DNA of 64,000 nucleotides from contig NZ_KE384402.1 in the NCBI RefSeq assembly GCF_000425585.1, positions 66,204 to 130,203 on the forward strand, written 5' to 3'. Source of the stretch: Terrimonas ferruginea DSM 30193 (GTDB lineage: Bacteria; Bacteroidota; Bacteroidia; Chitinophagales; Chitinophagaceae). Every line of letters begins with the position of its first letter. Position 1 is the stretch's first letter. Below the pieces are notes generated by a model. It was given only the letters and a program-made list of their open reading frames with translations. It was not told the DNA's origin and made no database searches. The translations under genes were made by a program, and so were the position numbers. Positions 6,660 to 8,096 of the stretch are shown here, one piece after another.

Positions 6660-6836
6660 ACGGAGGCTTTTGGTAGATCGTAAAAGTAAGATGCGTTTTG
6701 AGAAAAAAGACATAAAAAAAGCCAGGGCATGGGGCATCGGGCTGACTGGCCGTTTACTACGGTTCTTTAATAATCAACAAATTGAGAGCAAAAATGTTAC
6801 CGGAAAAAAACTGGCTGCTTTAGTAACTAAATTTAG

Positions 6837-6844
6837 TAACTTTG
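6837..6844 (+). promoter_or_regulatory. -7 promoter box TAACTTTG upstream of queA
   Basis: An exact match to TAnnTTTG, inside the second copy of a direct repeat TTTAGTAACT (6819-6828 and 6832-6841, 13-bp period). Transcription starting near 6848-6851 would give a leader of about 160 nt before queA. The direct repeat could be an operator. No clear -33 TTTG is seen. Confidence 0.55.
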
Positions 6845-6854
6845 CACACTTTCG

Positions 6855-6989
6855 GTATACCGTGTTAACGGTATACTCAGACAAGGCCCGGTGCCGTAAG
6901 ACCGGGGATTGCCTTTCTGTTCCGGCTACCATTGGGTAGCGGTCATTGTGAAGTCCATTCCCTGCCTGCGCCGGTCTGCGTCGTCAGAC
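6855..6989 (+). promoter_or_regulatory. Structured 5' leader of queA with four hairpins and competing pairings
   Basis: Four inverted repeats follow one another: 6855-6863 with 6868-6876 (9 bp, loop GTTA); 6887-6892 with 6901-6906 (CCCGGT/ACCGGG); 6925-6930 with 6935-6940 (GCTACC/GGTAGC, loop ATTG); 6974-6978 with 6985-6989 (GTCTG/CAGAC). GTCTG at 6974-6978 can instead pair with an identical CAGAC at 6878-6882, closing a roughly 100-nt domain. That mutually exclusive pairing is switch-like. I do not recognise a known riboswitch or the 4.5S, 6S, tmRNA or RNase P motifs in it. It may be a cis-regulatory leader or a short independent ncRNA. Confidence 0.45.
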
Positions 6990-7011
6990 ACCTAAATACA
7001 CTTATTAACGC

Positions 7012-8061
7012 ATGAAGCTTTCACAATTTCGTTTTGACCTTCCTTTAAACCTTATTGCGCAAAACCCGGCTAAAAAACGCGAGGACGCCCGTATGATGGT
7101 TGTTCACCGTCATACCGGCCAGATCGAAAACAAGCACTTCCGGGATATCCTCGATTATTTCGACGACAAGGATGTATTTGTGGTAAACAACACCAAAGTG
7201 TTTCCCGCGCGCATGTATGGCCGTAAGGAAAAAACAGGTGCTAAGATCGAAGTGTTCCTGCTGCGCGAGCTGAACAAGCCGAACCGCCTGTGGGATGTAA
7301 TTGTTGACCCGGCCCGTAAGATCCGCGTTGGCAACAAGCTTTATTTCGGCGACCAGGAAGACCTGGTAGCAGAAGTGATCGACAACACCACCAGCCGTGG
7401 ACGTACCATCCGTTTCCTGTGGGACGGCAGTGAGGAAGAGTTCCGTGCGCAACTGGAAAAACTGGGTGAAACTCCCCTGCCCAAATACATTAAGCGCAAA
7501 CCCGATGAAGAAGATAAAGAACGCTACCAGACTGTATATGCGAAGCACGAAGGTGCGGTAGCGGCTCCTACTGCCGGTCTGCACTTCAGCCGCGAGCTGA
7601 TCAAGCGTCTTGAGATCAAAGGTGTGCGTTTTGCAGAAGTAACACTGCATACAGGTTTGGGTACATTCCGTCCTATTGAAGTGGAAGACCTGAGCAAGCA
7701 TAAAATGGACGCGGAATATTACCGCATTGATGAGGCGTCCTGCAAGATCGTTAACCGCGCGAAAGAATATGGTCACCGTATCTGTTCTATCGGTACAACC
7801 ACGATGCGTGCAATGGAGTCCTCGTTTACGGCGCAGAAGCTGTTGAAGCCTTCTGAAGGATGGACCAACATGTTCATTCATCCGCCTTACGAATTCAACA
7901 TTGCGGATTCACTGGTAACGAATTTTCACCTGCCTAAGACGAGCCTGCTGATCATGACCTGTGCATTTGCAGGTTATGAGCTGGCCATGGAAGCTTATAA
8001 AAAAGCAATCAAGGACAAGTATCGCTTCTTCAGTTATGGCGATGCCCTCCTGGTTATCTGA
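7012..8061 (+). CDS. queA: S-adenosylmethionine:tRNA ribosyltransferase-isomerase
   Basis: 349 residues, full length. QueA transfers the ribosyl moiety of SAM to preQ1-modified tRNA, giving epoxyqueuosine at wobble position 34. The sequence shows the conserved N-terminus ([20 protein letters not shown], then REDARMMV), [11 protein letters not shown], the central [10 protein letters not shown] motif near residue 185, [13 protein letters not shown] and the C-terminal [17 protein letters not shown]. The start codon at 7012 matches the family N-terminus. The gene stands alone behind a long structured leader and ends in a strong intrinsic terminator 7 bp after the stop, so it is probably monocistronic. 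Confidence 0.97.
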
Positions 8062-8067
8062 TTATCA

Positions 8068-8096
8068 AGCCCGTTTCTTAGAAACGGGCTTTTTTT
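8068..8096 (+). terminator. Intrinsic terminator of queA
   Basis: Perfect 10-bp stem AGCCCGTTTC/GAAACGGGCT with loop TTA, followed by a run of seven T. It is a classic Rho-independent terminator. Confidence 0.93.

Follow-up and report, generated by a model that had tools for sequence, protein, structure and literature searches.

The queA leader of Terrimonas ferruginea DSM 30193 contains a hairpin with the loop CCGUAA. This hairpin, which the initial annotation of the leader had not singled out, is the decisive element of the region and is well supported as an RNA element upstream of queA. We propose, at a probability of about one half, that the leader acts in cis as an operator of queA translation, in which a C-Y-G-U-A-A hairpin is bound by a protein, perhaps QueA, and closes the start codon. 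The initial annotation was confirmed in part as to what it observed and supported in part as to what it concluded.

Layout of the queA leader

The leader and queA lie on the forward strand of the window, by which we mean the whole stretch of 64,000 nucleotides that was analysed. queA runs from the ATG at 7012 to 8061 and was matched by the NCBIfam models NF001140 (459.5 bits) and TIGR00113 (404.5 bits). A promoter box, TAACTTTG, was read at 6837-6844. It is of the TAnnTTTG type, which we take to be the Bacteroidota-type promoter. The box had been described as lying in a direct repeat of 13-bp period; the repeat is TTTAGTAACT at 6819 and 6832, and both coordinates and letters were right. Among 160 unique family leaders, 156 had a TAnnTT[TC]G box 10-70 nt before their first hairpin; when the search window was moved 100 nt further upstream, the count was 0 of 158. 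From the box at 6837-6844 the leader is about 160 nt long, and the long structured leader that had been proposed behind such a promoter was recovered. Directly 3' of queA, an inverted repeat (AAGCCCGTTTC / GAAACGGGCTT, 8067-8096) is followed by a T run. It probably acts as a terminator, in which case queA would be transcribed on its own.

The four inverted repeats noted before were all present (6854-6877, 6887-6906, 6925-6940 and a weaker one at 6974-6989). By folding, the first pairs 6854-6863 with 6868-6877 and stands close to where the mRNA is predicted to begin. Hairpins of unrelated sequence were seen by eye near the predicted 5' end of several other long leaders (L083, L140, L148, L150, L157 and L158), and such hairpins are perhaps 5' stabilisers. 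The second is the core hairpin (6887-6906), with the stem CCCGGT/ACCGGG; G6893 and G6900 close its loop, CCGTAA (6894-6899). It was identified from sequence, covariation and a match to the covariance model R1 described below. The third, GCTACC/GGTAGC at 6925-6940, was obtained by folding only. A long-range helix, P1, joins strand U (6880-6888), placed by alignment pair counts and a duplex test over 91 representatives, to strand S (6973-6982; GGTCT 6973-6977 and GTC 6980-6982), placed by alignment. Sequence and folding put the start-codon region ACGCATG at 7008-7014.

Folded as a single sequence, the leader of the window was only slightly more stable than its shuffles (z = -1.81), 9 of 200 of which did as well. 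This signal was too weak and was dropped as a basis for decision. The case for a functional leader rests on comparison among relatives and not on the single sequence.

Conservation and distribution of the CCGUAA hairpin

We aligned 31 hairpins, 30 of them distinct. All six loop letters, CCGUAA, were invariant, and all six stem pairs covaried with changes on both sides. Stem cells were paired in 88.3% of cases vs 57.7% in shuffles. The covariation score was 0.90 vs 0.32 for shuffled alignments (0 of 500) and at most 0.35 when the partner strand was slid. The test for covariation in relatives that the initial annotation had suggested supports a structure, chiefly the helix at 6887-6906 and not the pairing that had been named.

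The frequency of the hairpin was taken from 80 queA loci chosen by protein similarity alone, with the hairpin disregarded. Among the 78 with enough upstream sequence, a CCGTAA-loop hairpin preceded queA in 61, a CTGTAA-loop hairpin in one more (L075) and neither in 16. A larger set of 178 unique family leaders, 17 of them without the hairpin, is biased to carriers because many were collected as hairpin matches, and 61/78 is the unbiased figure. In that larger set the hairpin overlaps or touches the queA AUG in 22 of 178 leaders. Three arrangements were seen. Short leaders are reduced to a hexaloop hairpin and nothing more, with the AUG contained in or touched by the 3' arm, as in UUCAUA-CCGUAA-UAUGAA of Chitinophaga. 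A second type has the hairpin UCAUG-CCGUAA-CAUGA (hairpin A) upstream. The window represents the third, in which a GC-rich hairpin adjoins strand U of P1.

Genome-wide, exact CATGCCGTAACATG occurred as a single copy in each of 59 of 195 family genomes, and the reversed pattern, used as a control, gave 13 matches in 12 genomes. Of 30 CATGCCGTAACATG neighbourhoods inspected, 28 lay before queA and 2 within unrelated genes. Under stricter filters, R1, a covariance model of the core hairpin built on family stems, matched 155 of the 195 family genomes at E<=1. In the genome of the window its only match at this level was the hairpin at 6887-6906. queA lay downstream in 85 of 110 family regions with R1 matches (L185, L191 and L231 included) and was absent in 25; it was also present in 12 of 14 further family regions (L265-L278). 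In 17 non-queA R1 regions the hairpin was inside an open frame of at least 650 bases in 8, and others were terminator-like. Two regions of one genus (L167, L168) had the hairpin before the same non-queA gene. Since no target was common beyond one genus among the non-queA regions, a family-wide regulon of CCGUAA hairpins was rejected.

Outside the family, 0 of 26 regions with R1 matches were found near queA. R1 is built on family stems and is blind to AU-rich ones, and the class-wide claim therefore rests on a direct reading of queA leaders. Among members of the class (class name inferred) that are not of the family, 111 leaders were readable, sampled without the hairpin as bait. Within 200 nt of the start, 24 had a CCGTAA and 5 a CTGTAA hairpin, i.e. 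29 of 111, from 18 families; the remaining 82 had no C[C/U]GUAA hairpin. The hairpin reached the AUG in 8 of the 29. Background windows of 220 nt, drawn from part of the 4-kb loci and in a few cases lying outside the class, gave 9 CCGTAA and 2 CTGTAA hairpins in 1873. With relatedness ignored, the Fisher p was 2e-24 for CCGTAA and 1e-5 for CTGTAA. Shuffled class leaders had 0.25 CCGTAA hairpins per set. CCGTAA was also the commonest hexaloop in class leaders (24), the runner-up occurring 6 times. Leaders outside the class had the hairpin in 0 of 17. The hairpin thus occurs at queA across the class, roughly one in four of the non-family leaders sampled having it, a distribution that common descent with loss would explain.

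CCGTAA loops were also seen away from queA. Clusters of two to seven such hairpins each were present in genomes outside the family (L239, with 7 hairpins in about 250 nt on the minus strand, L240, L241, L244 and L246). L159 has tandem hairpins at about 508 and 542, upstream of a thymidylate synthase-like gene. Terminator-like symmetric hairpins with this hexaloop were found in L210, L216, L235 and L257-L259.

Part of the element is already catalogued as RF03093 (queA RNA), which is reportedly from the Weinberg group's 2017 survey and is classed by Rfam as an sRNA gene. Like the family leaders, RF03093 lies upstream of queA and has the loop CCGUAA in its first hairpin. Its model consists of two local hairpins and lacks a long-range helix; in the present reading the AUGUGGC at its 3' end corresponds to strand S of P1. 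Where its second hairpin is followed by the tail CUGAAUGUGGCUAU, the aligned letters of the window are GGTCTGCGTCGTC (6973-6985). RF03093 was found at its cut-off (52.6 bits) in 13 of 195 family genomes and at E<=0.001 in 25. Of 16 relatives scanned, L021, L110 and L025 scored above the cut-off and L016, L119 and L126 below it (hairpin-A relatives). In the window there was no RF03093 match at gathering and none at E<=10 in 6760-7060, and its own genome had none at E<=0.001 under stricter filters; the congener of the window's species had no match either. The Rfam scan of the window leader gave one chance-level match (E 9.5) and otherwise nothing. The Rfam check suggested at the outset was accordingly negative for the window itself, but placed some relatives in an existing family. 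The window resembles RF03093 in its CCGUAA-loop hairpin (6887-6906) upstream of queA at 7012, but differs in its GC-rich stem, in a hairpin that adjoins P1 and in the lack of the AUGUGGC tail. By the core hairpin it is a divergent relative of RF03093, and by the model it is not a member. Our literature search for queA RNA, queA motif and RF03093 found no paper, and the word queA did not occur in the searchable portions of two other structured-RNA surveys (PMC2864571, PMC8040213; term search).

The long-range helix P1 and the start codon

The initial annotation had proposed a switch in which GTCTG (6974-6978) pairs either with CAGAC at 6985-6989, as a local hairpin, or with an identical CAGAC at 6878-6882. 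The letters are present as stated. When enforced, however, the long-range form folded at -53.3 and the local form at -58.4 kcal/mol, vs -60.0 kcal/mol unconstrained. When the window was aligned with 17 relatives, the set being hand-chosen for a common register, the local hairpin was not kept and the long-range helix stood in a shifted register, 6880-6882 and 6884-6888 pairing with 6973-6977 and 6980-6982. Being neither conserved nor most stable, the GTCTG/CAGAC switch was rejected. Mutually exclusive pairings do exist in the leader, but between the hairpin and P1 and not between the segments named.

Two alignments, A2 (18 leaders) and A3 (16), were hand-chosen for a common register from 51 representatives plus L004. 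In A2, 81.8% of P1 cells were paired and 5 of 10 pairs had changed on both sides; in A3 the two P1 segments were paired at 64.8% and 78.0%. Slid controls of the whole structure, hairpin included, reached at most 45.9% (A2) and 40.7% (A3). Over 91 representatives the U-S duplex had an energy of -12.84 vs -9.71 kcal/mol when permuted (0 of 5000). The permutation tests keep some relatedness; those of duplex and accessibility were made on representatives below 80% similarity. In hairpin-A leaders, the 3' half of hairpin A can switch to a downstream AUGUGGC, so that P1 is GCC[GUA]ACAU / AUGUGGC. AUGUGGC was present in 26 of 62 such leaders vs 0.16 in shuffles. Judged from these sequences, P1 competes with the hairpin in longer leaders, since both draw on the same strands.

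The predicted balance differs among leaders. In the unconstrained ensemble of the window's type, L090 had a P1-strand pairing of 0.80 and a hairpin of 0.01, and L149 had 0.04 and 0.91. In the window, CAGA 6878-6881 preferred TCTG 6916-6919 as its partner and, together with AAGGC 6883-6887 and GCCTT 6911-6915, extended the core hairpin to 6878-6919. This extended hairpin is the unconstrained minimum of -60.0 kcal/mol. P1 costs about 9 kcal/mol relative to it, and the hairpin state should therefore dominate there unless P1 is helped. A two-state balance is thus not supported in the window's species, where P1 is predicted to be unfavourable, nor in its congener, where U-S pairing is weak (-4.3).

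Strand S has another possible partner in the window. By folding, UGCGU at 6977-6981 can pair with ACGCA at 7008-7012, at the start codon, for -58.3, a cost under 2 kcal/mol. S-start pairing was better than with swapped contexts (-5.61 vs -4.69; 0 of 5000), and S was no better a start-codon partner than segments taken from elsewhere in its leader (median 0.48). The S-start pairing is only moderately specific.

A change in AUG accessibility is predicted by these models. With the hairpin enforced, the predicted probability of an unpaired AUG was 0.30 for leaders of the window's type, and enforcing P1 instead brought it to 0.50; for hairpin-A leaders the two values were 0.20 and 0.38. The AUG opened when P1 replaced the hairpin in 44 of 54 leaders of the window's type and in 20 of 26 hairpin-A leaders, counts that exclude four undefined rows (L030, L039, L113 and L193). 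In hairpin-A leaders the gain of 0.18 vs 0.03 with swapped start contexts was significant (p 0.006, n=26). In the window's type the gain of 0.20 vs 0.16 was not beyond the control (p 0.34, n=54).

A candidate protein site and its rivals

In the mechanism that we propose, a trans-acting protein would recognise the C-Y-G-U-A-A loop (in the window CCGUAA, 6894-6899), whatever the letters of the stem that carries it. As long as the hairpin stands and is held, the start codon would be closed. Closure would be direct in leaders whose 3' arm contains or adjoins the AUG, as in Chitinophaga and others. It would be indirect where hairpin and P1 exclude each other and strand S, freed from P1, pairs with the start codon. 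When the hairpin yields, P1 may form in longer leaders and the AUG may open. Comparison shows the fixed loop, the covarying stem, the place upstream of queA, the AUG overlap in short leaders and the alternative P1. Binding by a protein, and repression as its sign, are our proposal: a loop kept across many relatives and often placed at the start signal suggests that QueA, or a protein that works with it, holds down its own synthesis by gripping a decoy. Bacteroidota lack Shine-Dalgarno sequences and tune initiation by structure, as stated in the portion available of PMC6847099, which we count in favour of the operator.

The genome's own tRNA-Tyr has the anticodon loop CUGUAAA. In a comparison made post hoc, CCGUAA equals positions 32-37 of it in 5 of 6 letters, with C in place of U at 33. 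Eighteen changes of one letter in the loop are possible; C2 to U, giving CUGUAA, was the only one that clearly recurred (5 class and 2 family leaders), and every other change was found at most twice in both sets together. The recurring change makes the loop identical to that of tRNA-Tyr, again by post hoc comparison. The tRNA-linked control that had earlier been called conceivable is the best lead. Because the loop copies positions 32-37, we favour QueA as the putative binder, and the operator is perhaps an anticodon mimic. QueA serves four GUN tRNAs of the queuosine pathway, tRNA-Tyr being one of them, and a fixed A-A after G-U, which fits tRNA-Tyr only, counts against it.

The same operator might instead be bound by TGT, tyrosyl-tRNA synthetase, MiaA or a general RNA-binding protein, an unlikely reading but the most probable of the rivals. 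That nothing but the loop and a helix is fixed is what a protein site would leave behind. An unvarying G-U-A-A would suit enzymes that read tRNA-Tyr alone, and some genomes have CCGUAA hairpins away from queA. The single site at E<=1 in the window's genome is that of queA, however, which favours a queA-specific partner. TGT in particular is disfavoured: UGU is reported as the minimum requirement of the E. coli enzyme (Nakanishi 1994, as cited in the accessible part of PMC3660597), and most loops have CGU. The CCGUAA form should then be a poor TGT substrate and QueA the more natural binder.

We also entertain, with considerable doubt, a bolder form of the proposal that QueA binds. The hairpin would, class-wide, be a decoy that imitates the anticodon arm of tRNA-Tyr and has a pyrimidine at 33, QueA without free tRNA substrates would bind it and close its own start codon, and in CUGUAA leaders TGT could even exchange G for preQ1 and so make a true QueA substrate. 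Caution is called for in the mRNA-modification version of the idea, since virF mRNA was modified by TGT in vitro and this was not found in vivo, according to the available part of PMC13326639.

An element free of any factor, i.e. a thermosensor or a fixed initiation brake with the loop kept for stability, is improbable. The AUG within the arm of short hairpins would agree with it, as would the tuning of initiation by structure in the phylum (PMC6847099, in the part available), but a brake requires a stem and not one fixed loop, and all other hexaloops are rare in the same leaders. Still less probable is a small-molecule riboswitch for preQ1, queuine or SAM with the hairpin as part of an aptamer. 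The gene context and alternative pairings that extend to the start codon speak for it, but the single hexaloop hairpin of short leaders is too little for an aptamer. Moreover, neither the window nor the 16 relatives had an Rfam riboswitch match, which bears out the initial view that this is not a known preQ1 or SAM riboswitch. Finally, a DNA operator for a transcription repressor, suggested by a dyad directly downstream of the promoter, or a Met-Pro-stop upstream reading frame, suggested by hairpin A reading ATG CCG TAA, is very improbable, since an operator should have fixed arms where here the arms covary and the asymmetric spacer is fixed, and since the codon before CCG varies (ATG, GTG, GCG, GTA, ATA, CCC or other). 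A fixed loop on a free stem points to a protein site rather than to an aptamer or a DNA operator.

A translational operator bound by QueA would have parallels. E. coli ThrRS, at the thrS operator, and yeast HisRS are tRNA enzymes that bind their own mRNA and regulate its translation, HisRS by way of an anticodon-like structure (PMC6542539, in the portion available). The queA leader likewise has a candidate anticodon-mimic loop in the mRNA of a tRNA enzyme. Those two are aminoacyl-tRNA synthetases, whereas queA encodes a modification enzyme for which binding is our proposal. Operators of the thrS type lie near or over the ribosome binding region; the queA hairpin reaches the AUG in 22/178 family leaders and 8/29 class hairpins, and in the window the start codon is involved only via the alternative pairing. 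The preQ1 riboswitches of classes I-III are mRNA leaders that control queuosine-pathway genes (PMC11625349, in the part available). The queA leader would share with them the control of a pathway gene by an mRNA leader, but they are preQ1-binding pseudoknots and no such model matched it.

Our literature search on queA found no anticodon-mimic operator of a tRNA-modification enzyme, and we know of no earlier one. The present reading offers a function for the catalogued RNA RF03093 and names the loop as its key element. It also widens the known range of the RF03093 core hairpin, so far part of a single family, by no fewer than 18 other families of the class. If the bolder form is true, an operator with the CUGUAA loop would report the state of the whole queuosine pathway. 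If QueA binds, a tRNA-modification enzyme would here be controlled through an anticodon-mimic operator, and queuosine output would be tied to tRNA demand in bacteria without Shine-Dalgarno sequences.
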